Positions 4,658 through 24,836 of a DNA stretch of 64,000 nucleotides are shown piece by piece. The stretch spans positions 2,520,001 to 2,584,000 of the forward strand of contig NZ_CP012946.1 of assembly GCF_001402875.1 (NCBI RefSeq). Direction: 5' to 3'. A program made the position numbers and the translations under genes. Under the pieces are notes generated by a model. That model was not told where the DNA came from. It searched no databases and worked only from the letters and a program-made list of their open reading frames with translations. Origin of the DNA: Blastochloris viridis. GTDB lineage: Bacteria > Pseudomonadota > Alphaproteobacteria > Rhizobiales > Xanthobacteraceae. The stretch's first letter is position 1. Each line of letters begins with the position of its first letter.

Positions 4658-6142
4658 TCAGAAGTTCCGCTGAACGCGGAGCATGCCGGAGAAGATGTCT
4701 TCGTCGTTCTGGTAATAAGCCTTGCCGTCCGGATCGAAGTCGCCACCGACGTCGATCTTGCTGTACAGAAGTTCGACACCGATATCGAGGTTGCGAACCG
4801 GCGACCACGTGGTGTTGAAGCCGATCTGGTACAGGTTGAAGTCACGCGCGGTCGAGTAGTAACCACCCGTGCCAACGGTAGCACCGGCGTAGTTGGTCAC
4901 ACCGACGACTTCCGGAACGTCGACCGACGAATAGCCGCCGAACAGGGTCGACCGCAGACCGGGCGTCCAGAAGTGACGGAAGTCGGCGCGGATGGTCCAG
5001 GCCGAGACCTTCTCGATGCTGCCGGTCACCGGGTCGACATAGCCATCGGCCAGATCGACAACCGCGCCGGAGGTGCCGCGGATGATGCCGAGGCCAGGAC
5101 GACCGCCATTCTGGTTCTGACCGCTGAGACCGGTGTACTCGGTCGCGCCGTCAGCGTAGCTGCCCTGAACGATGAACTGATCGCCCTTGGTGAGAGAGTC
5201 GAGGTTGAAGGTGATGCCGGCACCGATGGCGAAGCCATAGTCGGTGTCGTTATCTTCCGCACGGGTGAAGCCGGCAACCTGAGCAAGATCCGAGGTATCG
5301 GACCGGAGCTGGTGGATGGCGCCGGAGAGCTGGGCCGAGCCCCACGACTGATCGATGCGGATATTGGCGACGAATTCCGGCATCGCCAAGCCAGCCTGGG
5401 CCAGGGTGCCGTCCGTATAGGAAACGTGGCCAGTGCCGTTGTCGAGATCGAAGGTGTCCGGAGTGGTGAGACCAGCCCGGGCCTGGATCTGACTGCGGCG
5501 GTTGGCAGCGTCTTCAGCCGCGATCGTCACCGACAGGCCGTTGCCGAGCGAGGCGGTGTAAGCGAACACGTTGTTCAGCTTGTTCGAGCCGACATTCGCG
5601 GTCACGAACGTGCCGAGGCCGGTCGAAAAGTCGAAGAACGACTGAACGTAGCCGAAGGTGAAGCCGGCGAACTGGATGAAGGCACGGTCCATATCGACTG
5701 CGCGAGACGACACAGAGTTGGTCAAGGTCGAAGACCCGCCAGCCGAGTCGTTGCTCACATAGAAGCGGCCGTAGGAGCGCAGCGTGCCATATTCGGTACG
5801 GGTGCGGGCGTCGAGGTCGATCGCGACGCGGGCGCGGGTGGTGGTCAGATCGTCCGCGCGATCGTAGGAGACGTTGCCGTCCTGCGTGATGTTGTTCTGG
5901 CCGATGTACAGCGGAGCGGTGCCGCCGTTCGCAAAGGCAGTGTAGTAGTCAGCGCGCAGATAGCCGCCGACCTTCAAGCACACGTCGGTGCCCGGGATGT
6001 AGTAGAAGCCGGCGCCGTAGGCGTCGCAAACCTTGACGTACTCAACGGCCTTGGACTTGGCCGGAAGATCAGCCGCTTGAGCACTGGCAACCGCCACGAG
6101 ACCCGCCGCGGAGCCGAGGAGAAGGCTCTTCACGATAGACAT
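4658..6142 (-). CDS. Outer-membrane porin (rhizobial porin family)
   Basis: A 494-aa beta-barrel porin. The first 24 residues are a clear signal peptide (MSIVKSLLLGSAAGLVAVAS, then AQAA/DLPAK). The mature N-terminus carries the family hallmarks of Bradyrhizobium-type porins: VCDAYGAGFYYIPGTDVCLKVGG, with two cysteines, and then a RADYY strand. The C-terminus ends in Phe (MLRVQRNF), as is usual for BamA-assembled barrels. The start at 6142 is set by a GGAGGT site; the open frame extends upstream without support. It is monocistronic, with its own terminator. It would allow diffusion of small hydrophilic solutes; its place inside the nif region is probably incidental. Confidence 0.93.
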   Translation of the reverse strand: MSIVKSLLLGSAAGLVAVASAQAADLPAKSKAVEYVKVCDAYGAGFYYIPGTDVCLKVGGYLRADYYTAFANGGTAPLYIGQNNITQDGNVSYDRADDLTTTRARVAIDLDARTRTEYGTLRSYGRFYVSNDSAGGSSTLTNSVSSRAVDMDRAFIQFAGFTFGYVQSFFDFSTGLGTFVTANVGSNKLNNVFAYTASLGNGLSVTIAAEDAANRRSQIQARAGLTTPDTFDLDNGTGHVSYTDGTLAQAGLAMPEFVANIRIDQSWGSAQLSGAIHQLRSDTSDLAQVAGFTRAEDNDTDYGFAIGAGITFNLDSLTKGDQFIVQGSYADGATEYTGLSGQNQNGGRPGLGIIRGTSGAVVDLADGYVDPVTGSIEKVSAWTIRADFRHFWTPGLRSTLFGGYSSVDVPEVVGVTNYAGATVGTGGYYSTARDFNLYQIGFNTTWSPVRNLDIGVELLYSKIDVGGDFDPDGKAYYQNDEDIFSGMLRVQRNF

Positions 6143-6474
6143 AGGTAACCTCCGAATTCTCTCTCTCGTTCTGATGGAGCGGGTGCTGTCCGCAGTGTTG
6201 CCACCTGGGAAGTTCCCCAAACCCCTTGCCCAGTCGTTACTAACCTATCGATTCTTCAGATCGCTTCGGCAGTCCGGTCCGGGGCGAGGCGGGGTTCCCC
6301 CCTCCGTCGCAACGCCAACATGGCCCGGCATTGTTTCGCAATCAACGATTCGGAACGCTTCCAACCGGTTCTGGCGCCGCATTTCCAGGACGTGTTGCAT
6401 TCATGCCACTGGCGGTTGGGGGTAACGCGCGGTTACCGCATCCGTCGGATCGGCCAAGCCGGCGTTTGTGCTCC
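6143..6474. other. Intergenic region between porin and ureE
   Basis: 332 bases with no gene. They hold the porin promoter and leader (GGAGGT ribosome site at its left end) and the 3' end of ureE transcription. No convincing -35/-10 pair, terminator or conserved RNA was recognised. Confidence 0.3.
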
Positions 6475-7044
6475 TTAACCCTTGTGGCCGCAGCCGCATT
6501 CGCCGTGATGGTGGTGCGCATGATCGGGCTGCCGGCCGTGCTGATGCCCGGGCGCGTCCTCGCCATGGGAGGCGCAGCCGCAGCTCTGGGCGTCGTGATC
6601 GTGGCCGTGGTGGTCGTGGTGCGCCGGCTCGGGGGCGAACGGCCGCTCGACCGCGACGGCCATGCCACCTTGGCTGCGCACCAGCTCGGCCAGCGCGGCG
6701 TCGTGCGGAATGAACAATGCGTCCTCGCCGACCTCGACCGCGACGTGGCGGCCGCCGAGCTGCCAGGCGAGCCGGAGCAGGCGGGCGGAGGCGTTGGCCG
6801 TGACGCGGAACAGCCGTTCCGGGGCCGCGACCACCTTCACCAGCCCACCGTCATCCAGCTTCAACGCGTCGCCATCAGCCAGCAGCACCGTCCTGCCGAG
6901 CGCCAGCACCAGCTCGCGGCCGCCGTCGGTTTTGATGCGCCCATCGCCGCACACCCGCGCGCGATGGTCCAGGGTAACGGTTTCGACGACCCGCTCGTCC
7001 CTTACGGCAGGACGGCGGACGACGTGGGCGGCGCGCAGCGACAT
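6475..7044 (-). CDS. ureE: UreE urease accessory / nickel chaperone with His-rich tail
   Basis: A 189-aa UreE family protein. The N-terminal half has the family pattern VTLDHRARVCGDGRIKT...GDAL.LDDGGLVKVVAAPE; the second domain has LLRLAWQLGGRH. The final 45 residues are rich in His, Asp and Cys (HHDHHGHDHD, HAHHHHGECGCGH) and would bind several nickel ions. Family knowledge: UreE delivers Ni2+ to apo-urease through UreG. The start at 7044 is chosen by AGGAG 8 bases upstream; the open frame runs further without a start site. hupE lies upstream in the same direction but 480 bases away. No urease structural gene is in the window, so the client could also be a hydrogenase. Confidence 0.85.
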   Translation of the reverse strand: MSLRAAHVVRRPAVRDERVVETVTLDHRARVCGDGRIKTDGGRELVLALGRTVLLADGDALKLDDGGLVKVVAAPERLFRVTANASARLLRLAWQLGGRHVAVEVGEDALFIPHDAALAELVRSQGGMAVAVERPFAPEPAHHDHHGHDHDAQSCGCASHGEDAPGHQHGRQPDHAHHHHGECGCGHKG

Positions 7045-7234
7045 CGGGCGAACTCCTGCTTGAATATCCTCGGCAACCAAGCGGCCTCGCGGAAGTAATA
7101 TGACAGCCCGGACTTCGACAGAACGTCGGGCAAAGGTGGAAGCGGCCCGGCGACAACGCCTCACGCGGCGGTTGATCGCGCTTGATACGAGGTCCGGTTG
7201 ATCCCCTCCTGATCTCGGGAACCAATCCTCGCCG

Positions 7235-7320
7235 GACGAAGCCTTGATCGGAAAAGGGACTTTTCGACGGCCGCGACGACGAAACGCCGGCCTGATCGGA
7301 ACCACGGCCGGCTGCCGCCG
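7235..7320 (+). repeat. Second dispersed repeat family, copy 1
   Basis: TTGATCGGAA, then a G-run, then ACTTTTCGACGG, then CGACGACGAAAC.CCGGCCTGA. A matching stretch occurs at 41527-41600. It fills part of the 480-base ureE-hupE spacer (7045-7524). The rest of that spacer shows only the palindrome at 7479. Confidence 0.55.
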
Positions 7321-7478
7321 CCGATGGCCTGATCAGCCGGACTTCGTCCCTCAGACAAAAGCCGAAGCCGGGCTCGCGGTTCCGGTGACCCGGCATGCGG
7401 GAGGGGCCGCACCGTCGTCCCGGCGGCACCGCGCGCAATACCGCCGTTGCGTGCTCGTCCCGACGGCGGAGGCGCAAG

Positions 7479-7502
7479 GCGGGCCGGCTTAAGCCGGCCC
7501 GC
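7479..7502 (-). terminator. Perfect 24-bp palindrome after hupE
   Basis: The sequence is fully self-complementary (arms GCGGGCCGGCTT / AAGCCGGCCCGC) and lies 23 bases downstream of the hupE stop. It could act as a transcription terminator or 3'-end stabiliser, although there is no T-run. Confidence 0.5.
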
Positions 7503-7524
7503 AATATCGCGCGCCGCTGGCGGG

Positions 7525-8151
7525 CTACGCCACCAGCAGCACCACGCCGAGCGCGGCGGCCGCGCCGCCCGCCACCCGGCCGAGAATCCGGCGGTCGGTG
7601 CGGATCAGACCCACGCCGAGGCCGATGCCAATGATGTGGATCAGCGCGGTCGAGAGCGAGAAGCCGGCGACATAGAACCAGAAGTTTTGGTCCGGCGCCT
7701 CGGCACCGTGGGCAAAGCCGTGAAAAAAGGCGAAGCCCGCCACCACCACCGCGCCGAGCGCCAGCGGCGGGCGAATGCCGAGCGCGAGCAGGCTGCCGAC
7801 CGCGATCAGCGAGCCGGTGATCACCATCTCCACCGCCGGCACCTCCACCGCATCGTGGGCGACGACGGCGCCGACGACCATCGCCGCCACGAAGGCGAGC
7901 GGCCACCACAACACGCTGCGGCCGCCGGCCAGCGCCGACCACAGCCCGACGCACAGCATGGCGACCAGATGGTCCGGCCCGGTGATCGGGTGGAGGAAGC
8001 CTTCGAGCGGAGAAAAGGTGTCGCCATGGCCGGTATGGGCGAGCGCCGGCGTGGCGGCCAGCGCCGCCAGCGCGAACAGGCCGAGGCCAAGCGCGCGCCC
8101 GCGGCCCGCCGTCCCGGCGGTCGGCTCCGTCGTCGTAATGGGCGTTGTCAT
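7525..8151 (-). CDS. hupE: HupE/UreJ family nickel permease
   Basis: A 208-aa integral membrane protein. Residues 1-38 hold a hydrophobic leader ending in ATPALAHTGHGD. The signature motif HPITGPDHLVAM (about residues 54-65) is the nickel-binding HPxxGxDH of the HupE/UreJ family. About six further transmembrane segments follow, with a second histidine patch FFHGFAHG. Family role: nickel uptake for NiFe-hydrogenase or urease. With ureE downstream in the same direction it forms a small nickel-handling pair. The start at 8151 follows GGGGAG. Confidence 0.88.
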   Translation of the reverse strand: MTTPITTTEPTAGTAGRGRALGLGLFALAALAATPALAHTGHGDTFSPLEGFLHPITGPDHLVAMLCVGLWSALAGGRSVLWWPLAFVAAMVVGAVVAHDAVEVPAVEMVITGSLIAVGSLLALGIRPPLALGAVVVAGFAFFHGFAHGAEAPDQNFWFYVAGFSLSTALIHIIGIGLGVGLIRTDRRILGRVAGGAAAALGVVLLVA

Positions 8152-8367
8152 AGGCAGTCACTCCCCGAGGAACCGCTTCATTATCCGTGCGGCTGCAACC
8201 ATCGTAAACACGACCATGGGACGTTGCAAAGGCTGCACGGGATGGCCTTTCGGCCGATGGCGCGGTCGGCTGGACCCACGGCCAGCGCGAAACGGCGGGG
8301 CGTCGGGCCGCAGCCATCCGGCTGCCCGGCAGCGGTCTCGGAAAATTCGCGCGCGGCGGTCCTTTGC

Positions 8368-9552
8368 CTAAAGCCGCTCCAGCGGCGGGCCGACATAGAC
8401 CTCGGCGAGCGCCGCCGCCGCGGCGCGCGAGGACACCAGGTGCTCCAGGTCAGCGAGTTGGCGGCGCAGGTCGAAGGCGTTGTCGCGCGGATTGCGGTGC
8501 AGCACCTGGGTCATCCACCACGAGAAGCGCTGCGCCGCCCACGCCCGGTTCAGGCAGATGTCGGAGTAGCGCTCCAGCAGGCTGGCGTCGCCCGACTTGA
8601 AGAACTCGGTCAACCCGCGCGCCAGCACGCGTGCGCCGGCGATGGCGAGGTTCATGCCCTTGGCTCCGGTCGGCGGCACCACGTGGGCGGCGTCCCCTGC
8701 GAGGAACAGCCGGCCATAGCGCATCGGCTCGGCGACAAAGGCGCGCAGCGTGGTCAGACTCTTCTGCAGCACCGCACCTTCCGTCAGCACGATGCCGCTA
8801 TCGTCGCCGGCGAGACGCTGGTCGAGCTCGTCCCAGATGCGAGCATCCGACCAGTGCCCGAGGTTCTCGTCCGGATTGACCTGGAAAAACAGCCGCGCGA
8901 CGTGCTGCGAGCGCATGCTGGCCAAGGCGAACCCGCTGGGATGGTGGGCGTAGATCAGCTCGTCAGCGGGCGGCGGGGCGGCAGCAAGGATACCTAGCCA
9001 GGCCAGCGGCAAAATCCGCTCATAGACCTGCAGAGCACCCGGCGGAATCGACGGCCGCGCCACGCCGTGGAAGCCGTCGCAGCCGGCGATGACGTCGCAA
9101 CTGAGGACGTGGCGGTGGCCGGCGTGGCGGAAATGGATGCTCGGCCGCTTGCTCTCGATGTCGGTCAAGGTGACGTCGGAGACCTCGAAGCGGATGTCGC
9201 CGCCGGCAGCACGCCGCGCGGCGATCAGGTCCTTCACCACCTCGTGCTGGCTCCACACCACCACGCCGCGGCCGTCGAGCAACTCGGCGAAATTGATGCG
9301 ATGGACGGCGCCGCCGAACAGAAGGCCAATGCCGTGGTGGACCAGCCCCTCGCGCTCCATGCGATCGCCGAGGCCGGCCTCCACTAGCAGCCGGGCAATG
9401 GCGTGCTCCAGCACGCCCGCCCGGACCCGGCCCTCGATGGCGGCCTGCGGCTGCGCTTCGAGCACGACCGACTCGATGCCCTCCCGCTGTAGCATGTGGG
9501 CCAGAAACAAACCGGCCGGCCCGGCTCCGACGATCCCGACTTGCGTCCGCAT
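8368..9552 (-). CDS. pobA: 4-Hydroxybenzoate 3-monooxygenase
   Basis: A 394-aa flavoprotein hydroxylase converting 4-hydroxybenzoate to protocatechuate with NADPH and O2. The FAD-binding GxGxxG is at residues 9-14 (GAGPAG). The NADPH/FAD DG motif appears as DVIAGCDGFHGVAR, and the second FAD motif as GRLFLAGDAAHVVPPTGAKGMNLA. The length matches PobA (about 390 aa). It stands alone: no pobR or protocatechuate genes are adjacent, and it is not part of the nif operons even though it lies just after nifT in the same direction. Being oxygen dependent, it is functionally at odds with its nif neighbours. Confidence 0.93.
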   Translation of the reverse strand: MRTQVGIVGAGPAGLFLAHMLQREGIESVVLEAQPQAAIEGRVRAGVLEHAIARLLVEAGLGDRMEREGLVHHGIGLLFGGAVHRINFAELLDGRGVVVWSQHEVVKDLIAARRAAGGDIRFEVSDVTLTDIESKRPSIHFRHAGHRHVLSCDVIAGCDGFHGVARPSIPPGALQVYERILPLAWLGILAAAPPPADELIYAHHPSGFALASMRSQHVARLFFQVNPDENLGHWSDARIWDELDQRLAGDDSGIVLTEGAVLQKSLTTLRAFVAEPMRYGRLFLAGDAAHVVPPTGAKGMNLAIAGARVLARGLTEFFKSGDASLLERYSDICLNRAWAAQRFSWWMTQVLHRNPRDNAFDLRRQLADLEHLVSSRAAAAALAEVYVGPPLERL

Positions 9553-16568: not shown

Positions 16569-16833
16569 ACAGTGCGGCGGCTGCGCCCTCCCCGGCGCCG
16601 ATTGACGATGGTTGCAGCCATGTTCAAGCTTAGGCCGCCGCGGCGCAGTGTCACGCGAATTCTTGCGGATCGGCAGCGGCGACAGAACTATCGAGTTGAT
16701 TTCGCCTGCTTCGCCCACAGTTTTGGCAGGTTCACTTTAAAAACGACGGCAGACGGCCGGAAGAACTCTAGAACGCGATCCACACTATCCCCTGGCGCGC
16801 CGGCCTCCGTTTGGACTAGCTCGAAAGTGGACA

Positions 16834-16863
16834 TGGACATGCCTATGGTAGTGGCACTATAAG
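16834..16863 (+). promoter_or_regulatory. Possible sigma-70-type promoter of nifJ
   Basis: TGGACA (16834-16839) and TATAAG (16858-16863) are separated by 18 bases, about 95 bases before the nifJ start. TGGCAC at 16852-16857 resembles a -24 element, but no TTGC follows at the right distance and no TGT-N10-ACA site was found in 16656-16955. NifA control of nifJ is therefore not supported by sequence. Otherwise nothing is visible in this 300-base spacer. Confidence 0.35.
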
Positions 16864-16955
16864 CGCGCCGTGGCGGAAAGGCAGGCAGCCGTGCGGTAGT
16901 GTGATGCTCCTGAGGAGCGGCCGCGCGCCACCAGAAAATCCAACGGACGCGGTAC

Positions 16956-19900
16956 ATGAACGCAAAGTATCCTGGCATTCCCAGCGTAATCCACGGCAAC
17001 GGCGCGGTTGCCCAGGTCATGGGCCACGTCTGCGGCGGAGTTATCGGCTATCCGATCACCCCCTCCACCGAAATTTCAGAGCTTTACGAATCGTTCCGAG
17101 CGTCCGGCGGCTGCAACGTCTGGGGCAAGCACCCGTTCTTCTTCGAGCCGGAGGGTGAGCACTCAGCCCAGTCGGGCGCGCTCGGCGCAGCGCTGACCGG
17201 CGGCAAGTACGTCTCCAACGCCTCCTCCAGCCAGGGCATCCTCTACGGCCTGGAGTCGCATTACGTCACCGTCGGCAAGCGGGTCGGCGGCTTCGTGCTG
17301 CAGGTGGCCGCCCGCGTGGTCTCCAAGCACTCGCTGAACGTGATGGCCGGCCACGACGACGTCTACGCCCTCCTCCAGTCCGGCTACACCATCCTGTTCG
17401 GCTCCAACCCGCAGGAGGCCGCCGACCTCGCCGCCATTTCCTACAAGGTGAGCGCGACCTCGCTGATCCCGGTCACCAACGCCATGGACGGCTTCGCCAC
17501 GTCGCACATGATGAGCGAAGCGCTGATGCCGGAGCCCGATCTGCTCCGCGAGTACCTCGGCGACCCCGCCGGCCGCATCAAGTGCCCGAGCGTGGCGCAG
17601 GAGATCCTGTTCGGCGCCAAGGGCCGGGTGTTCCAGCTCAAGCAGTATCTCGCCAAGCGCCAGGGCGACCTCGACCCCGACGGCTTCCTTAAGGTCAAGG
17701 AATATCTCGACACCTATGCCGAGGCGGTCGAGGCCGACAATGACGGCGGTCTGGTCGAGGCCACGCTGCGCTGGCTCCCCGAGGAGTTGCACCGCCAATG
17801 GCGCCGCCAGTGGGTCAACGCCTACGAGAAGGGCACCCGCCAGCGCGTGCCGGCGCTGGTCGACATCAACAATCCCGGCCTCACCGGCGGGGTGCAGAAC
17901 CAGCCCGACTTCCAGGCCGGCTCGGCCGACCACCGCACCCACTTCGTCTCTGAAGTGCCGCGCCTGGTGCGCGAGGCGATGGCCGAGTATTCGGCGCTCA
18001 CCGGCCGCGAGTACAAGCCGGTCCACACCTTCATGTGCGAGGACGCCGACCATGTGGTGGTCGGCCTCGGCTCGGTGACCGACGACGCCGAAGCGGTCGC
18101 CACCTATCTGCGCGGCCAGGGCAAGAAGGTCGGCGTGGTTTCGGTGAAGCTCTTGCAGCCGTTCCCCGAGGCGGAGCTGGTCGCAGCCTTGGTGGGCAAG
18201 AAGGCCGTCACCGTGCTGGAGCGCTCCGACGTCACGGCGCTCGCGAGCTTCGTGACCCAGGCGCTGTTCAAGGGCGTCGAGAACGCCTCCGGCGAGCGCC
18301 ACCCCGGCATTCCGGCCATCAAGAGCCTGCCCAAGATCACCACCGCGATCTTCGGCCTCGGCGCCCACGATCTGCAGCCGCGCGATCTGGTCGCCGCGTT
18401 CAAGAACATGGAGACCAAGAACGCGCCGTTCGTCTATCTCGGCTCGCAGTTCTATTCGAAGACCCCCTCGCCCAAGCTCGCCGCGTTGCAGGAGCGGCTC
18501 AAGGCCGCCTATCCCGACACCGAGCTGATGGCGCTCGAGACCGAGCCCAACCCGAATCTGTTGCCGCCCTCGGCTTTCCGCGTGCGCTTCCATTCGGTCG
18601 GCGGCTACGGCACCATCGCCACCGGCAAGCTGCTCACCGACATCCTGGCCGGCGCGCTCGACCTGCACTCCAAGGCCGCGCCGAAATACGGCTCGGAAAA
18701 GAGCGGCGCGCCGACCAACTATTACATCACCCTCAGTCCCGAGCATGTGAAGCTCACCAACGCCGACCTTGAGGACGTCGAGATCGTCATCTCGCCGGAC
18801 CACAAGGTGTTCAGCCACGCCAATCCGCTGCGCGGGCTGATCGAAGGCGGCACCTTCATGATGCAGTCGAACCTCACCCCGCTCGAGGTGTGGAAGGAAC
18901 TGCCGGCGAAGGCGCGCAAGACCATCCGCGACAAGAACATCAAGATGTTCATCGTCGACGGCTTCGCGGTGGCCAAGCGCCATGCGCCGACGCCGGAGCT
19001 CGAGACCCGCATGATGGGCATCGCCTTCATCGGCGCGGTGTGCGGCCACGTCGACCGCATCGTCGCCGACGCCTCGCGCGATGCCATGCTGACCAAGATC
19101 CGCCAGCAGATCGCCAAGAAGTTCGGCTCCAAGGGCCAGGCCGTGGTCGACGGCAACATGGCGGTGATCAAGGAAGGCCTGGAGGCGACCCAGCGGCTCG
19201 ACTACACCCAGCCGGAATTCGCTGCCGTCGAGGCGGAGACCACCGCCAAGGCCGCGCGCACCGTCGCCATCTCGGCCGCGATGTGCCGCACCAACGGCAT
19301 GGCGGCGAGCGAGGGCATCTTCGATCGCGAGTACTATGACGAGGTGATGGCGGCGCCGTTCCGCGACGGCACCATCGCCGAGGCCCCGGTGCTGCCGGGC
19401 ATGGGCATGTTCATGCCGGGCGGCTCGGCCGCGTGGAAGGACAAGGGCCTGTTCCGCCGCGACGTGCCGGACTTCAACCCCGACCTTTGCACCGGCTGCA
19501 TGGAATGCGCACTGGTGTGTCCGGACGCGGCGATCCCCAACACCGTCCACGACATCCGGGATCTGCTCGCGACCGGCATCACGCACCTCGACGTGCCGGA
19601 GGCCCAGCGCGAGGCGCTGCGCGCCCAGCTCTATCCCTTGAGCGAGGCGGTGCGCGAAATCTACACCGCCACCAAGGACGCCAAGGCGTTCCACGAGGTG
19701 GTGGCACAGGCGGTGGCGACCATCGACACCGACAACGCCACCTTGAAGCGCAATCTCGGCCGCCTTGCCGAGACGCTGACGCTGTTGCCGGTGGCGCGCA
19801 CCCGGCCGTTCTTCGACGCCATGGAGAAGGACAAGGTCGGCAGCGGCGGCCTGTTCTCGGTGGCGGTCGACCCGTGGAAGTGCTCGGGCTGCCTGGAGTG

Positions 19901-21935
19901 CATCGACGTCTGCGGCCCCGGCGCGCTGAAGGAGCGTCAGCAGGACGCCGCCCTGCTCGACACGCTGCAGGCGCGCTTCGAGTTCCTCAGCCACACCGCC
20001 AATACCCCGGCCCGCTTCACCGAAGGCGCGCTGAAGGACGGCGGCGACATCAAGCGGCTGATGCTCGACCGCGCCAACTACTACTCGACCACCGGCGGTC
20101 ACGGCGCCTGCCGCGGCTGCGGCGAGGTCACCGCGATCCGTCTGGTGATGGCGTCCAACCACGCCATCCAGACCAAGCGCCGCAAGGATCATCTGCGCGA
20201 ACTCGAGGCGCTGATCGATCAGCTCAAGGTCAAGCAGGCCTCGGTGCAGGCCGATACCGCCCGTCGCGACCGCATCGCCGCCGCGATCAAGACGCTGGAA
20301 CGGCGGCAGTTCCTGCTGGAAAGCGGCCCGACCGGCAACGGCCCGGCCTCTGCGGTGGTGGCCAACGCCACCGGCTGCTCGAGCGTCTATGCCTCGACCT
20401 TCCCGTTCACCCCCTACAACGATCCGTGGGTGAACAGCCTGTTCCAGGACACCCCGGCTGTTGCCAAGGGCCTGTTCGAGGGCTTGACCGCATCGGCGGT
20501 CGACGACGTCAAGGCGCTGCGCGTCGCCCGGCTGGAGCTGGCCGACGCCTATGACTCGAGCGTCTACGACAAGCCGTTCAAGACGCTGAGCTGGAAGGAC
20601 TTCACGCCGGACGAAATGACGCTGCTGCCGACCGTCGTCTCGATGGGCGGCGACGGCGCCACCTACGACATCGGCTTCGGCGCGCTGTCGCGCCTGCTCG
20701 CCACCTCGACCCCGATCAAGGTGGTGGTGCTGAACACCGGCGTCTATTCCAACACCGGCGGCCAGACCTCGACCGCCAGCCTCACCGGCCAGGACTCCGA
20801 CCTGTCGCGGTTCGGCAGCGCCCATTCGGGCAAGCAGGAAGACCGCAAGGAACTCGGCCTGATCGCCGCGTTCCACCCCAACGTGTTCGTGGTGCAGACC
20901 TCGACCGCGGTGCAGGGCCACTTCCTGAAGAGCGTGATGGAGTACCTCAACCACACCTCCTCGCCGGCGGTGCTCGACGTCTACACCCCCTGCCAAGCCG
21001 AGCACGGCATTGCCGACGCCGCGGCGGCGCGCCGGGCCCGCCTCGCCGTCGAAAGCCGGATGAGCCCGGTGTTCGTGCACGACCCGCGGCGCACCGACGG
21101 CCTGCGCAGCCGGTTCTCGCTCGAGGGCAACCTCGACATCGACAAGGATTGGACCACCACCACCCTCACCTATGTCGAGGATGGCGTGACCAAGCTGATG
21201 CAGGTGCCGCTGACCCCGGCCGACTTCGCGCGCGACGAGACCCGCTTCCAGAAGCAGTTCCGCAAGCTCAAGGACGACACCAATGCGGTGGCGATCCATG
21301 ATTTTGTCGACCTGCCGCACGCTGAGCGGGCCGGCAAGACGCCGTTCGTGTGGGCGACCGACGACAGCCAGAAGCTCATCAAGCTCGAGGTGTCGAACGC
21401 CATCGTCCATCTGGTCGAAGAGCGCCGCAAGTATTGGCGGACGCTGCGCTACCTGGCCGGCCGCGAGATTGCCCAGCTCGGCGCCGATCACCGCACCGAG
21501 CTGGCAGCGCTGCAGCAGCGCTACGAGCAGGCGATGACGGAGAAGGAGTCCTCGCTCGACACCATCGCCCGCGCGATGAGCGAGCTGGCCGCCGCCTCCA
21601 ACGCGCCCGCCAACGGCGCGCTGGCCACTGCGCTGTCGCCGTTCGGCGGCGCGGCGGCTCCGACTCAGGCGGCCGCGCCGGCGGCGGCCACCAACGGCTC
21701 GGGTGCCGGCGTCCCGTTCATCCACGACGAGGATGTCGAGAAGTGCACCAACTGCAAGACCTGCTACCAGCAGGTCTCGGAGCTGTTCGAGAGGACCGTG
21801 ATCGTGTCGGACGGCGGCACCAAGGAGGTCGCCCACACTATTCCGGGGGCTTTGGAGAAGGTGGCGGTCACCGCGGACCTCAAGACCCGCGTGGCCCGCG
21901 TCGCCGCCAACTGTGATGCGGAGATCATTCGATGA
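16956..21935 (+). CDS. nifJ: Extended NifJ-type pyruvate:ferredoxin oxidoreductase
   Basis: A 1659-aa protein; ordinary NifJ is about 1180 aa. It oxidises a 2-oxoacid (probably pyruvate) with CoA and TPP and passes low-potential electrons to ferredoxin or flavodoxin. In order it has: the domain I motif GYPITPS (31-37); a central domain with FHSVGGYGTIATGKLL (about 545-560); two [4Fe-4S] motifs at Cys845/848/851/855 and Cys976/979/982/986; and the proximal cluster ligands Cys1052, Cys1055, Cys1141 and Cys1346. The TPP motif is GGDGATYDIG...NTGVYSNTGGQ (1231-1270). Oddities: a charged, probably coiled insertion between Cys1055 and Cys1141; over 100 residues between the two ferredoxin motifs; and a C-terminal extension with an Ala/Pro linker (about 1550-1585) and a ferredoxin-like tail (Cys1597, 1600, 1603, 1653). 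Its stop overlaps the next gene by 4 bases. Confidence 0.9.
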   Translation: MNAKYPGIPSVIHGNGAVAQVMGHVCGGVIGYPITPSTEISELYESFRASGGCNVWGKHPFFFEPEGEHSAQSGALGAALTGGKYVSNASSSQGILYGLESHYVTVGKRVGGFVLQVAARVVSKHSLNVMAGHDDVYALLQSGYTILFGSNPQEAADLAAISYKVSATSLIPVTNAMDGFATSHMMSEALMPEPDLLREYLGDPAGRIKCPSVAQEILFGAKGRVFQLKQYLAKRQGDLDPDGFLKVKEYLDTYAEAVEADNDGGLVEATLRWLPEELHRQWRRQWVNAYEKGTRQRVPALVDINNPGLTGGVQNQPDFQAGSADHRTHFVSEVPRLVREAMAEYSALTGREYKPVHTFMCEDADHVVVGLGSVTDDAEAVATYLRGQGKKVGVVSVKLLQPFPEAELVAALVGKKAVTVLERSDVTALASFVTQALFKGVENASGERHPGIPAIKSLPKITTAIFGLGAHDLQPRDLVAAFKNMETKNAPFVYLGSQFYSKTPSPKLAALQERLKAAYPDTELMALETEPNPNLLPPSAFRVRFHSVGGYGTIATGKLLTDILAGALDLHSKAAPKYGSEKSGAPTNYYITLSPEHVKLTNADLEDVEIVISPDHKVFSHANPLRGLIEGGTFMMQSNLTPLEVWKELPAKARKTIRDKNIKMFIVDGFAVAKRHAPTPELETRMMGIAFIGAVCGHVDRIVADASRDAMLTKIRQQIAKKFGSKGQAVVDGNMAVIKEGLEATQRLDYTQPEFAAVEAETTAKAARTVAISAAMCRTNGMAASEGIFDREYYDEVMAAPFRDGTIAEAPVLPGMGMFMPGGSAAWKDKGLFRRDVPDFNPDLCTGCMECALVCPDAAIPNTVHDIRDLLATGITHLDVPEAQREALRAQLYPLSEAVREIYTATKDAKAFHEVVAQAVATIDTDNATLKRNLGRLAETLTLLPVARTRPFFDAMEKDKVGSGGLFSVAVDPWKCSGCLECIDVCGPGALKERQQDAALLDTLQARFEFLSHTANTPARFTEGALKDGGDIKRLMLDRANYYSTTGGHGACRGCGEVTAIRLVMASNHAIQTKRRKDHLRELEALIDQLKVKQASVQADTARRDRIAAAIKTLERRQFLLESGPTGNGPASAVVANATGCSSVYASTFPFTPYNDPWVNSLFQDTPAVAKGLFEGLTASAVDDVKALRVARLELADAYDSSVYDKPFKTLSWKDFTPDEMTLLPTVVSMGGDGATYDIGFGALSRLLATSTPIKVVVLNTGVYSNTGGQTSTASLTGQDSDLSRFGSAHSGKQEDRKELGLIAAFHPNVFVVQTSTAVQGHFLKSVMEYLNHTSSPAVLDVYTPCQAEHGIADAAAARRARLAVESRMSPVFVHDPRRTDGLRSRFSLEGNLDIDKDWTTTTLTYVEDGVTKLMQVPLTPADFARDETRFQKQFRKLKDDTNAVAIHDFVDLPHAERAGKTPFVWATDDSQKLIKLEVSNAIVHLVEERRKYWRTLRYLAGREIAQLGADHRTELAALQQRYEQAMTEKESSLDTIARAMSELAAASNAPANGALATALSPFGGAAAPTQAAAPAAATNGSGAGVPFIHDEDVEKCTNCKTCYQQVSELFERTVIVSDGGTKEVAHTIPGALEKVAVTADLKTRVARVAANCDAEIIR

Positions 21936-24772
21936 GCACCGTCTCCCCTCAAGAGCCGCCCCGTGACGAGCTGATCCGCTACGCCCGCTCGACCTCAACC
22001 CTTGCGGCGACGCGCAGCGAGCTGGCTCAGCTCGAACAGACCCAGGCGGTCGAGCTGTTCAACAAGCAGCTCGAACTGCTCAAGAAGCGGCTCCTCAGCG
22101 ACCCCAAGTCGCTGAGGACCACGTTCGTCGCCGATGGCGTGACAGCCATCGCCTGGGAGTTCCAGCAGGAGGAACTGGGTGCGGCGTTCACCAAGACGCT
22201 GTGGGAGCTTCTCGTTCGCGACGACGAGATGAGCACGGTGCTGTTGCGCTTCATCTGGGCGATGCCGCTCAAATTCAAGCGCAAGTTCATCAAGGCGATC
22301 GACGACCATCTGTCCGACCGCTACCCGATGTTCAAGGGCCTCTCCGAGGGCTGGCCGGGCGAGACCTTCATCCCGCCCTACATCCGCCCGCCGGAGGAGC
22401 GCTCGACCGACTTCGAGCTGGTAAACACCGGCTATCTCGGCTACCGCGCGCTGGGCTACTCGACCCGAGAGGTCGAGCTGTTCGTGTGGCTGGAGGTGCT
22501 GCGCGACAAACAGTGTACGGACAAGCCGTGCGAGCTCGGCGTGCTGATCCACGGCAAGTCCGAGCCGAAGGGCGGCTGCCCGGTCAAGATCCACATCCCC
22601 GAGATGCTGGATCTGCTCGGCCAGGGCAAATTCCGCCAGGCCCTGGAGCTGATCGAGGGCTGCAACCCGCTGCCGAACGTCACCGGCCGCGTCTGCCCGC
22701 AGGAACTGCAGTGCCAGGGCGTGTGCACCCACACCAAGCGGCCGATCGAGATCGGCCAGCTGGAGTGGTTCCTGCCCGAACACGAGAAGCTGGTCGGCCT
22801 GTCGCCTGAGGAGCGCTTTGCCGGCGTGGTGTCGCCGTGGGCGATGGCCGACAAGCCGCCGATCGCGGTGGTGGGCTCGGGGCCCTCGGGCCTCATCAAC
22901 GCCTACCTGCTGGCGGCCGAGGGCTACCCCGTCACCGTGTTCGAGGCGTTCCACGAGCTTGGCGGCGTGCTGCGTTACGGCATCCCCGAGTTCCGCCTGC
23001 CCAACACGCTGATCGACGACGTGGTCCAGAAGATCACCCTGCTCGGCGGCCGCTTCGTCAAGAACTTCGTGGTCGGAAAGACCGCGACGCTCGACGACCT
23101 CAAGACCAACGGCTTCTGGAAGATCTTCGTCGGCACCGGCGCGGGCCTGCCGACCTTCATGAACGTGCCGGGCGAGCACCTGCTCGGCGTGATGTCCGCC
23201 AACGAGTTCCTCACCCGCGTCAACTTGATGCGGGCGATCGACGACAAGTACGAGACCCCGGTGCCCGACACCAAGGGCAAGGAGGTGTTCGTCATCGGCG
23301 GCGGCAACACCGCGATGGACGCCGCACGCACCGCCAAGCGCCTGGGTGCCAACGTCACCATCGTCTATCGCCGCACCAAGGCGGAAATGCCGGCCCGCGT
23401 CGAGGAACTGCACCACGCGCTCGAGGAAGGCATCAACCTTGCCGTGCTGCGGGCGCCGAGCGAGTTCATCGGCGATGAGAAGACCCACTTCGTCACCCAC
23501 GCGGTGCTCGACGTCAACGAGCTCGGACCAGCCGACAAATCGGGCCGGAGAGCGCCGGTCAAGACCGGCAAGACCGAGCGGGTGCCGGTCGACCTCGTGA
23601 TCATGGCGCTGGGCAACACCGCCAACCCGATCATGAAGGAGGCCGAGCCGAGCCTGAAGACCTCGAAGTGGGGCACCATCGAGATCGACCAGGGCACGCA
23701 GCTCACCTCGATTCCGGACGTCTATTCCGGTGGTGACGCCGCCCGCGGCGGCTCCACCGCCATTCGCGCGGCCGGCGACGGCCAGGCGGCGGCGCGCCAG
23801 ATCGTCGGCGAGATTCCGTTCTCGCCGGCCGAGATCAAGCACCGGGTCGAGAAGGCGGCGCGCTACACCGAGCTTGGCCAGGTCAAGCAGACCATCGTCG
23901 ACAAGGTCGAGCTTGCCGGCGGCATCGTCGAGTTCAAGGTGCGTGCGCCGATGGTGGCGCGCTCCGCCCTGGCCGGCCAGTTCGTGCGCGTTCTCGCCTG
24001 GGACGACGGCGAACTGATCCCGCTGACGCTGGCGGACTGGGACGCCGAGGCCGGCACCATCGACCTCGTCATCCAGGGCATGGGCACCTCGACGCTGCTC
24101 ATGAACAAGATGGCGATCGGCGACGCCTTCGCCGGCATCGCCGGCCCGCTCGGCAAGGCCAGCGAGCTGCACAAGTACGCCGACGACGAAACGGTGGTGT
24201 TCACCGCCGGCGGCGTCGGCCTGCCGCCGGTCTATCCGATCGCCCGTGCCCACCTCGAGCTCGGCAATCATGTCACGCTGATTTCGGGCTTCCGCTCGGC
24301 CAATCTGTTGTTCTGGACCGAGGCCGACGAGCGCGTCGGCCTGCTCAAGGCCAAGTACGGCGACCAGCTCGACGTGATCTATACCTCGAACGACGGCACC
24401 TTCGGCATCAAGGGCTTCGTGACGGGGCCGCTTGAGGAGATGCTCAAGGCCGGCAAGGTCTCCAAGGGCCGCAAGATCGCCGAGGTCATCACCATCGGCC
24501 CGCCGATGATGATGCGGGCGGTGTGCGACCTGACCAAGCCGTACGGCGTGAAGACGGTGGCGAGCCTCAACTCGATCATGGTCGACGCCACCGGCATGTG
24601 CGGCGCCTGCATGGTGCCGGTGATGATCGACGGCAAGCTGGTGCGCAAGCACGCCTGCATCGACGGGCCGGAGATCGACGGCCACATCATCGACTGGGAC
24701 AAGTTCCTGCCGCGCTTTGGCACCTTCAAGGTGCAGGAGCAGCGCTCCAGGGAAGCCCACGGCCTGGCCTGA
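21932..24772 (+). CDS. Single-chain NfnB-NfnA-like NAD(P)H:ferredoxin oxidoreductase (GltD-SudB fusion)
   Basis: A 946-aa flavoprotein. Residues 1-190 match nothing I recognise. Residues 195-270 hold GltD-type cysteines for two [4Fe-4S] clusters (Cys195, 200, 216, 244, 255, 261, 265; GRVCPQELQCQGVC). Residues 312-630 are the GltD/NfnB domain, with FAD motif VVGSGPSGL (314-322) and NAD(P) motif VIGGGNTAMDAART (454-467). Residues 650-930 are an NfnA/SudB/PyrK-like FAD-NAD(P) module ending in DATGMCGACMV...HACIDGPEIDGH, an Asp/Cys [2Fe-2S] site (Asp885, Cys890, Cys893, Cys909). In Nfn and Sud enzymes these modules are separate subunits. ATGA coupling to nifJ suggests a complex moving electrons between NAD(P)H, the 2-oxoacid and ferredoxin for nitrogenase. 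A plain glutamate synthase role is unlikely, since no GltB is present. Confidence 0.82.
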   Translation: MSTVSPQEPPRDELIRYARSTSTLAATRSELAQLEQTQAVELFNKQLELLKKRLLSDPKSLRTTFVADGVTAIAWEFQQEELGAAFTKTLWELLVRDDEMSTVLLRFIWAMPLKFKRKFIKAIDDHLSDRYPMFKGLSEGWPGETFIPPYIRPPEERSTDFELVNTGYLGYRALGYSTREVELFVWLEVLRDKQCTDKPCELGVLIHGKSEPKGGCPVKIHIPEMLDLLGQGKFRQALELIEGCNPLPNVTGRVCPQELQCQGVCTHTKRPIEIGQLEWFLPEHEKLVGLSPEERFAGVVSPWAMADKPPIAVVGSGPSGLINAYLLAAEGYPVTVFEAFHELGGVLRYGIPEFRLPNTLIDDVVQKITLLGGRFVKNFVVGKTATLDDLKTNGFWKIFVGTGAGLPTFMNVPGEHLLGVMSANEFLTRVNLMRAIDDKYETPVPDTKGKEVFVIGGGNTAMDAARTAKRLGANVTIVYRRTKAEMPARVEELHHALEEGINLAVLRAPSEFIGDEKTHFVTHAVLDVNELGPADKSGRRAPVKTGKTERVPVDLVIMALGNTANPIMKEAEPSLKTSKWGTIEIDQGTQLTSIPDVYSGGDAARGGSTAIRAAGDGQAAARQIVGEIPFSPAEIKHRVEKAARYTELGQVKQTIVDKVELAGGIVEFKVRAPMVARSALAGQFVRVLAWDDGELIPLTLADWDAEAGTIDLVIQGMGTSTLLMNKMAIGDAFAGIAGPLGKASELHKYADDETVVFTAGGVGLPPVYPIARAHLELGNHVTLISGFRSANLLFWTEADERVGLLKAKYGDQLDVIYTSNDGTFGIKGFVTGPLEEMLKAGKVSKGRKIAEVITIGPPMMMRAVCDLTKPYGVKTVASLNSIMVDATGMCGACMVPVMIDGKLVRKHACIDGPEIDGHIIDWDKFLPRFGTFKVQEQRSREAHGLA

Positions 24773-24805
24773 GCGCCGGCCGGCGGCGACGGGACACCAA
24801 CAACG

Positions 24806-24836
24806 AAAGCTCCGGCCCTGCGGCCGGAGCTTTTGT
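24806..24836 (+). terminator. Rho-independent terminator of the nifJ operon
   Basis: AAGCTCCGGCC-CTGC-GGCCGGAGCTT followed by TTTG, 34 bases after the stop of the Nfn-like gene. Confidence 0.9.

Follow-up and report, generated by a model that had tools for sequence, protein, structure and literature searches.

The window analysed here is a 64,000-nt stretch of DNA, positions 2,520,001-2,584,000 of the one-contig, 3.72-Mb genome of Blastochloris viridis. On its + strand lie two overlapping genes, one for a very long pyruvate:ferredoxin oxidoreductase (PFOR)-like protein and one for a single-chain Nfn, a NAD(P)H:ferredoxin oxidoreductase with its NfnL- and NfnS-like modules fused. Comparison across genomes supports the inheritance of PFOR and fused Nfn as a unit. 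We see an even chance that the two form a redox module in which electrons from pyruvate pass to NADP+ through a tethered ferredoxin and the fused Nfn. The pair appears to wire pyruvate to NADPH anaerobically and not to be a nitrogen-fixation device, the idea with which the analysis began and which is corrected here. Its main features are as follows.

16956..21935, + strand: PFOR-like gene, 1659 amino acids, from domains and codon pattern (TIGR02176 407 bits, cut-off 911)
21932..24772, + strand: single-chain Nfn gene, NfnL then NfnS, 946 amino acids (NF009415/PRK12779 1845 bits, cut-off 1519; matches to 5jca_L and 5jca_S)
21932..21935, + strand: ATGA overlap of the two genes, 4 bases, recurring in 63 of 76 loci
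24803..24836, + strand: hairpin after the second gene, a likely terminator (-28.6 kcal/mol, z -4.95)

The initial annotation had described a 1659-residue PFOR and a 946-residue Nfn fusion overlapping by 4 bases, and the coordinates, lengths, ATGA and domain content of both proteins were all verified. It made no mention of the ferredoxin-like domain at the PFOR C terminus. Both open reading frames (ORFs) have gene-like third-position GC, with values at the three codon positions of 0.64/0.45/0.92 for PFOR and 0.64/0.42/0.93 for the Nfn fusion, and the closest matches of both proteins come from Blastochloris sulfoviridis (90% and 89% identity). The same annotation had the genes share one terminator. 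A strong hairpin is indeed present; a terminator common to both genes is likely, not certain, because the T-run lies mostly within the stem, the scan scored the hairpin on the - strand only, and the region holds no more terminator-like sites than chance predicts (5 found, 6.4 expected).

The first protein contains the Pfam domains POR_N, PFOR_II, POR, 4Fe-4S and TPP (thiamine pyrophosphate), and its domains, three cluster sites and TPP motifs place it in the PFOR superfamily, below the equivalog cut-off of TIGR02176. It shares domains, cluster cysteines and TPP motifs with 6cin and 1b0p, the PFORs of Moorella thermoacetica and Desulfovibrio africanus. Unlike 6cin (1171 amino acids), it has insertions and a C-terminal ferredoxin-like domain and is 488 residues longer, the extra length lying after domain I, between the 4Fe-4S motifs, in domain VI (~60 residues) and at the C terminus (~216).

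17040..17552, + strand: PFOR domain I (POR_N), with T35, E66 and R120 (Pfam, alignment)
19488..19520, + strand: first 4Fe-4S motif of domain V, C845, C848, C851 and C855 (69 of 69 sequences)
19539..19814, + strand: insertion of ~73 residues between the halves of domain V (profile 861-954 versus 702-722 of 6cin)
19881..19913, + strand: second 4Fe-4S motif of domain V, C976, C979, C982 and C986 (69 of 69 sequences)
20151..20351, + strand: insertion of ~60 residues in domain VI by the proximal-cluster Cys (profile 1065-1133 versus 822-829 of 6cin)
20631..20978, + strand: TPP-binding domain with GGDG and YSNTGGQ (Pfam, alignment)
21606..21731, + strand: Ala-rich variable linker (mean pairwise identity 0.30)
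21732..21932, + strand: C-terminal single-cluster ferredoxin-like domain, C1597, C1600, C1603 and C1653 (Fer4_15)

Conservation was read across 80 loci, the best of 341 encoding some relative of the fused Nfn; for motif counts the window was aligned with 79 of the 80 (Nfn) and with 68 (PFOR), shorter pieces being dropped. None of the twelve cluster cysteines varies among the 69 PFORs, nor do D1233 and N1266; T35, E66 and R120 are likewise constant in every sequence covering that region. The last three residues presumably act at the substrate/TPP site, and the conservation of T35 and R120 is consistent with pyruvate as substrate. A Pfam search with the domain VI insertion gave no family over cut-off. 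At the C terminus, mean pairwise identity rises to 0.63, against 0.30 in the linker, and all four cysteines of the C-x2-C-x2-C...C pattern occur in 68 of 69 PFORs (the exception is L080); in a further alignment (A2), Ser replaces C1600 in 1 of 19. The PFOR match of one carrier in the family sample (G432) stops at residue 1528.

The second protein matches NF009415 over its full length (residues 11-946) and contains Fer4_20, Pyr_redox_2, NAD_binding_1 and DHODB_Fe-S_bind domains, residues 201-624 matching 5jca_L and 655-939 matching 5jca_S.

21932..22501, + strand: N-terminal domain, ~190 amino acids (sequence comparison)
22505..22579, + strand: distal 4Fe-4S site, D192, C195, C200 and C216 (80 of 80)
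22694..22765, + strand: proximal 4Fe-4S site, C255, C261, C265 and Glu ligand E278, equivalent to E126 of P. furiosus NfnL (80 of 80)
22862..23779, + strand: NfnL FAD/NADP-binding region with R355 and R480-R481 (Pfam, 5jca, alignment)
23894..24751, + strand: NfnS-like module with FAD-strand residues E694, P697 and T699 (5jca_S, alignment)
24584..24658, + strand: 2Fe-2S site, D885, C890, C893 and C909 (79 of 79 sequences with the region; aligned to 5jca_S)

A bifurcating Nfn had been raised as a possibility at the outset, and the cluster ligands and the NADP and flavin motifs are as expected for one, save for a distal ligand and an FAD-strand Arg that are changed. R355, R480 and R481 occur in all 80 fused Nfns; we take the first to be the N5 arginine and the other two to be the NADP phosphate arginines. 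The FAD strand ERxPxT keeps E694, P697 and T699 throughout, with Leu in place of its Arg. Both the GRVCPQExQCx3C motif with its Glu ligand, as in NfnL, and the Asp plus three Cys set for the 2Fe-2S cluster, as in NfnS, are present; the available text of PMC9503767 gives E126 of P. furiosus NfnL as a proximal-cluster ligand. The distal site departs from the canonical RCx2Cx4Cx3CPV of NfnL, reading RDx2C-x4-C-x15-CPV, with a 12-residue insert before the last Cys that canonical NfnL lacks. D192 is invariant in all 80 fused Nfns and in five more distant homologues, and two-gene Nfns of relatives (L007, L008) keep the canonical RCx2Cx4Cx3C. Since six invariant cysteines and one Glu serve two 4Fe-4S clusters, we infer that D192 would be the natural eighth ligand. 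The first 190 residues gave no family over cut-off in a Pfam search.

The initial annotation was mistaken in taking all known Nfn to consist of two separate subunits: fused forms are catalogued (NF009415, NF009414, NF009413; Liang et al. 2019). In the available text of that paper (PMC6405883), Pattern C Nfn is a single chain of uncharacterised properties with NfnL first and NfnS last, ~200 residues longer than other fusions such as Pattern B and found in Actinobacteria, Alpha- and Gammaproteobacteria, and R. palustris is among the facultative organisms with Nfn homologues. The window protein agrees with Pattern C and NF009415 PRK12779 in its C-terminal NfnS, length and NCBIfam score; it differs from the NfnB distal motif, given there with four Cys, in having Asp for the first. 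No PFOR partner of Pattern C is described in that portion of the paper, where PFOR occurs once, as an abbreviation in the legend of the gene-arrangement figure, so an nfn-PFOR neighbourhood may already be drawn in that figure. Poudel et al. 2018, as far as its text was available, took all Nfn homologues, one from Mobiluncus included, as bifurcating. With the NfnSL/NfnAB of P. furiosus (5jca) and Thermotoga maritima (4ylf) the fused protein shares its domains, the E126-type ligand, the Asp plus three Cys 2Fe-2S site and the NADP arginines; those enzymes differ in their two subunits and all-Cys distal motif, and are without a comparable extra N-terminal domain.

The case for a unit comes from the co-occurrence of the two genes. 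PFOR lies upstream, on the same strand and at most 212 nt from Nfn in 77 of the 80 loci. Of the 76 loci in which it could be measured, 63 share the 4-base overlap, versus 52 of 452 other ORFs used as controls, a comparison biased towards overlap in that the start nearest the overlap position was used for each locus while the control demanded exact overlap. Protein distances of PFOR and Nfn correlate at 0.93 (69 pairs including the window; 0 of 999 permutations). Of 149 genomes from the family of Blastochloris, 20 encode the Nfn; the PFOR occurs in exactly these 20 and, by coordinates, lies next to it. These results bear out the two-gene module of PFOR and Nfn-like protein described at the outset, as one whose parts are inherited together. 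Carriers include Rhodopseudomonas, Accumulibacter, Propionivibrio and Cohaesibacter. Among 397 genomes sampled across the phylum, 9 match the PFOR: 2 Blastochloris, 5 of another genus (59-60% identity), which also pair it with the fused Nfn, and 2 at 36%. The pair is patchy in distribution: among a further 288 genomes sampled from the class, neither protein was found in any (E 1e-200 for Nfn, 1e-100 for PFOR).

The three unpaired loci all belong to symbionts of the genus Candidatus Thiosymbion, with no PFOR in the available upstream sequence of 10 kb (L066), 1.7 kb (L057) and 0.3 kb (L081). Each of these genomes encodes a PFOR elsewhere, with 64-65% identity and a match reaching residue 1659; they also encode a second PFOR-like protein, 27-28% identical. 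A conserved third gene beside the pair was sought and rejected, as no other gene cluster is present in more than 8 of 80 loci. Two contigs of one gammaproteobacterial metagenome-assembled genome (MAG) (L018, L019) each hold the pair, complete or in part, with 83% identity to the window, which suggests transfer of the pair or misbinning.

Other PFORs bear on the C-terminal domain. A genome of the same family (G011) encodes a second PFOR of 1551 amino acids (L091, G011:C174, 965-5863), 68% identical, which ends before the linker; it is unpaired and without the C-terminal domain, and a gene for a 64-residue dicluster ferredoxin follows on the same strand. The two homologues at 36% identity (G700, G777) are likewise long and end in a Fer4_13 domain (33.4 and 37.1 bits, cut-off 24.5). 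They differ in their partner, the membrane complex Rnf and not Nfn: each PFOR (L116, G700:C1; L115, G777:C11) sits in an rnf operon between RnfB-like and RnfC genes, RnfC_N scoring 89.5 and 98.3 bits; in G777 a gene of the RnfD type comes next. With one PFOR untethered and unpaired and two tethered beside Rnf, the tether in the cases seen, small in number, accompanies a ferredoxin:NAD(P) oxidoreductase, encoded adjacent or, in Thiosymbion, elsewhere.

Upstream regions were compared for the window and 66 loci in which PFOR residue 1 was located and 350 bp of upstream sequence were present. An FNR-type site (TTGAY-N4-RTCAA) precedes PFOR in 18 of these 67 regions, where shuffled sequences predict 0.05; with one mismatch allowed, there are 26 against 2.5 expected. 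Control frequencies were 4 of 430 upstream regions of same-locus ORFs and 9 of 3668 other windows. The 18 sites come from Rhodopseudomonas (ten), Cohaesibacter (three), betaproteobacteria (four) and Acetobacteraceae (one). We read the pair as an oxygen-controlled pyruvate:NAD(P) system whose ferredoxin is tethered and which would probably confurcate to NADPH.

We infer a physical complex, an electron route, a substrate and a direction for the module from sequence comparison, as follows. Operating at low oxygen, PFOR would use TPP and CoA to oxidize pyruvate or some other small 2-oxoacid. Single electrons would cross its three clusters to the ferredoxin-like domain tethered at its C terminus, which would pass them to the distal cluster of Nfn (D192/C195/C200/C216); from there they would reach the bifurcating FAD by way of the proximal cluster (E278). 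The other branch would draw on NADH through S-FAD and the 2Fe-2S cluster with its Asp ligand, and NADP+ would be reduced. The net reaction would be pyruvate + CoA + NADH + 2 NADP+ -> acetyl-CoA + CO2 + NAD+ + 2 NADPH. We go further only tentatively, to a hard-wired confurcating pyruvate:NADP+ oxidoreductase that bypasses the free ferredoxin pool and in which a long PFOR has an exchangeable outlet, Nfn or Rnf.

Several observations weigh against this reading. The C-terminal domain is likely rather than proven to be a ferredoxin, because Fer4_15 scores over its cut-off of 22.4 in the full protein (25.8 bits) and below it when the domain is excised (19.6 bits; best PDB match E 0.034). It also has 88 matches of similar length, 30 of them named PFOR and most on short contigs; 10 lie on contigs longer than 20 kb and might be separate genes. 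The pattern of no partner, no tether comes from one paralogue and the Rnf case from two genomes. The change at D192 could impede electron transfer. As to oxygen control, 10 of the 18 FNR-type sites come from one genus; neither the window nor the B. sulfoviridis locus (L009) has such a site upstream, even at one mismatch; and CRP-like sites are also in excess (18 versus 6.6 expected), partly at the same loci. Liang et al. caution, in the available text (PMC6405883), that sequence alone cannot tell the function of an Nfn homologue.

A module run in reverse would make pyruvate, a role that we think unlikely. PFOR is reversible, and several carriers are purple non-sulfur bacteria or acetate users. 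Pyruvate synthase roles in acetate-grown purple bacteria, that of Rhodospirillum rubrum NifJ included, appear in the available text of PMC8307300. However, FNR-type control suits anaerobic pyruvate oxidation at least equally, the pair has no widespread third neighbour gene, and Nfn is reported to work towards NADPH in vivo (PMC6405883, available text).

The initial annotation had the pair power nitrogenase. A dedicated donor of this kind, in which electrons of pyruvate and NAD(P)H exit as reduced ferredoxin for NifH, strikes us as improbable. The location of the Blastochloris pair speaks for it: the starts of the pair and of nifA are 1.7 kb apart, and nifB lies behind nifA. Upstream in the window lie nifA (754 bits, cut-off 529), nifB (666, cut-off 344), nifW (144, cut-off 117), a nifS-like gene just below its cut-off (528 versus 531) and a nifZ-like ORF named by eye; left of the window edge are nifH (452, cut-off 394) and nifD. 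In the family, nifD is present in 19 of 20 pair carriers versus 23 of 129 genomes without the pair (in one of these 23 the match falls below cut-off; Fisher 1.5e-11), and by genus in 5 of 6 versus 8 of 35 (Fisher 0.008). Because the pair goes with nifD there, a nitrogenase-linked role within the family is possible; a common anaerobic lifestyle, as well as function, may lie behind the association. Molybdate-uptake-type genes near Rhodopseudomonas pairs also fit.

In a wider set of carriers, the expected tracking with nif genes is not general: of 48 genomes, 19 have a nifD match over cut-off, or 23 counting fragments and relatives. For this set 50 of the 80 loci were chosen and 48 genomes, many of them incomplete MAGs, were searched; the 30 omitted loci are L009-L025, mostly Blastochloris, Rhodoplanes and Rhodopseudomonas and covered by the family sample, and 13 others. 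Because L009-L025 are mostly nif-positive, the proportion among all carriers would be higher than 19 of 48. Named isolates without a nifD match include Tropicimonas sediminicola, Cohaesibacter celericrescens and Aliiruegeria haliotis. A tblastn search with NifA, NifB, NifZ and NifW of the window found nif neighbours in 1 of 80 loci, that of Blastochloris. Upstream of PFOR, NifA-type sites (3 of 67, 3.5 expected) and sigma-54-type sites (12 of 67, 12.6 expected; 4 versus 2.3 by a stricter rule) are not clearly in excess, and the window itself has no NifA site there and sigma-54 matches only with 3 mismatches. Also counting against a donor, fixA- and fixX-like genes adjoin nifHDK just upstream (ETF-beta/FixX model matches below cut-off), and a tethered ferredoxin would be an odd choice for exporting electrons. 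Judged by co-occurrence, neighbours and upstream sites, a nitrogenase-specific role was rejected as the general function.

Mere operon-sharing, with PFOR reducing free ferredoxin, Nfn an independent transhydrogenase and the C-terminal domain structural, would suit the Thiosymbion loci, whose genomes encode a PFOR away from the available upstream sequence, and the weakness of that domain as a ferredoxin, but is quite unlikely given the conserved overlap, the distance correlation and the retention of four Cys in 68 of 69 sequences on a variable linker.

The proposed route from pyruvate to NADPH invites comparison with the eukaryotic pyruvate:NADP+ oxidoreductase, which carries PFOR and a flavin reductase domain on one chain. 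The parallel drawn in the initial annotation is apt as to function, the proposed aim of both being to bring pyruvate electrons to NADP+ without free ferredoxin; it does not extend to a single chain, as the window system has two chains, a ferredoxin tether and an Nfn. A natural PFOR-Nfn single chain was ruled out among the loci read, none of which has a fused frame. The fused Nfn itself was already known; the analysis adds the PFOR tether, the partner pattern, the Rnf-placed homologues and the invariant Asp. Among the matches listed in open-licence PMC papers, none was found to describe the pair, its tether, the change at Asp-192 or the link to FNR, which is weak evidence of novelty. If the reading is right, the uncharacterised Pattern C Nfn would gain a partner, a substrate and a setting, and a further PFOR would be physically coupled to electron bifurcation. 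Facultative proteobacteria would have an anaerobic source of NADPH, usable for example in polyhydroxyalkanoate synthesis, and engineering a natural ferredoxin tether.

Phototrophy was rejected as the common factor, as pufM occurs in only 5 of the 48 carrier genomes. In the family, rnfC was found in 0 of 43 genomes (20 carriers and 23 nifD-positive non-carriers). A PF05187 (FixX) search gave an additional short match in Blastochloris and in a few other genomes, but in most Rhodopseudomonas a single one.

Within window positions 4658-9552, the nif cluster is interrupted, because a Porin_2 gene and a 4-hydroxybenzoate 3-monooxygenase-type gene stand between nifW and nifB; the same interval holds an ORF that is HupE-like by eye and has no NCBIfam model match. 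In three Rhodopseudomonas loci (L014, L017, L024) the molybdate-uptake-type genes lie ~0.5-4 kb upstream of PFOR, with the domains SBP_bac_11, BPD_transp_1, HTH_1+TOBE and a single TOBE; the Mod naming is our own.

Immediately upstream of the window PFOR are two further features.

16824..16875, + strand: upstream block conserved in three Blastochloris genomes (the window, G001 and G002)
16834..16839 and 16858..16863, + strand: TGGACA and TATAAG within the block, 18 bp apart, read by eye

A sigma-70-like promoter can be read in the block, which also overlaps a weak GG-N10-GC; the promoter scan, by its own rule, found no site in it. A tandem TGGACATGGACA at 16828-16839, identical in the three Blastochloris genomes, is a possible regulator site.

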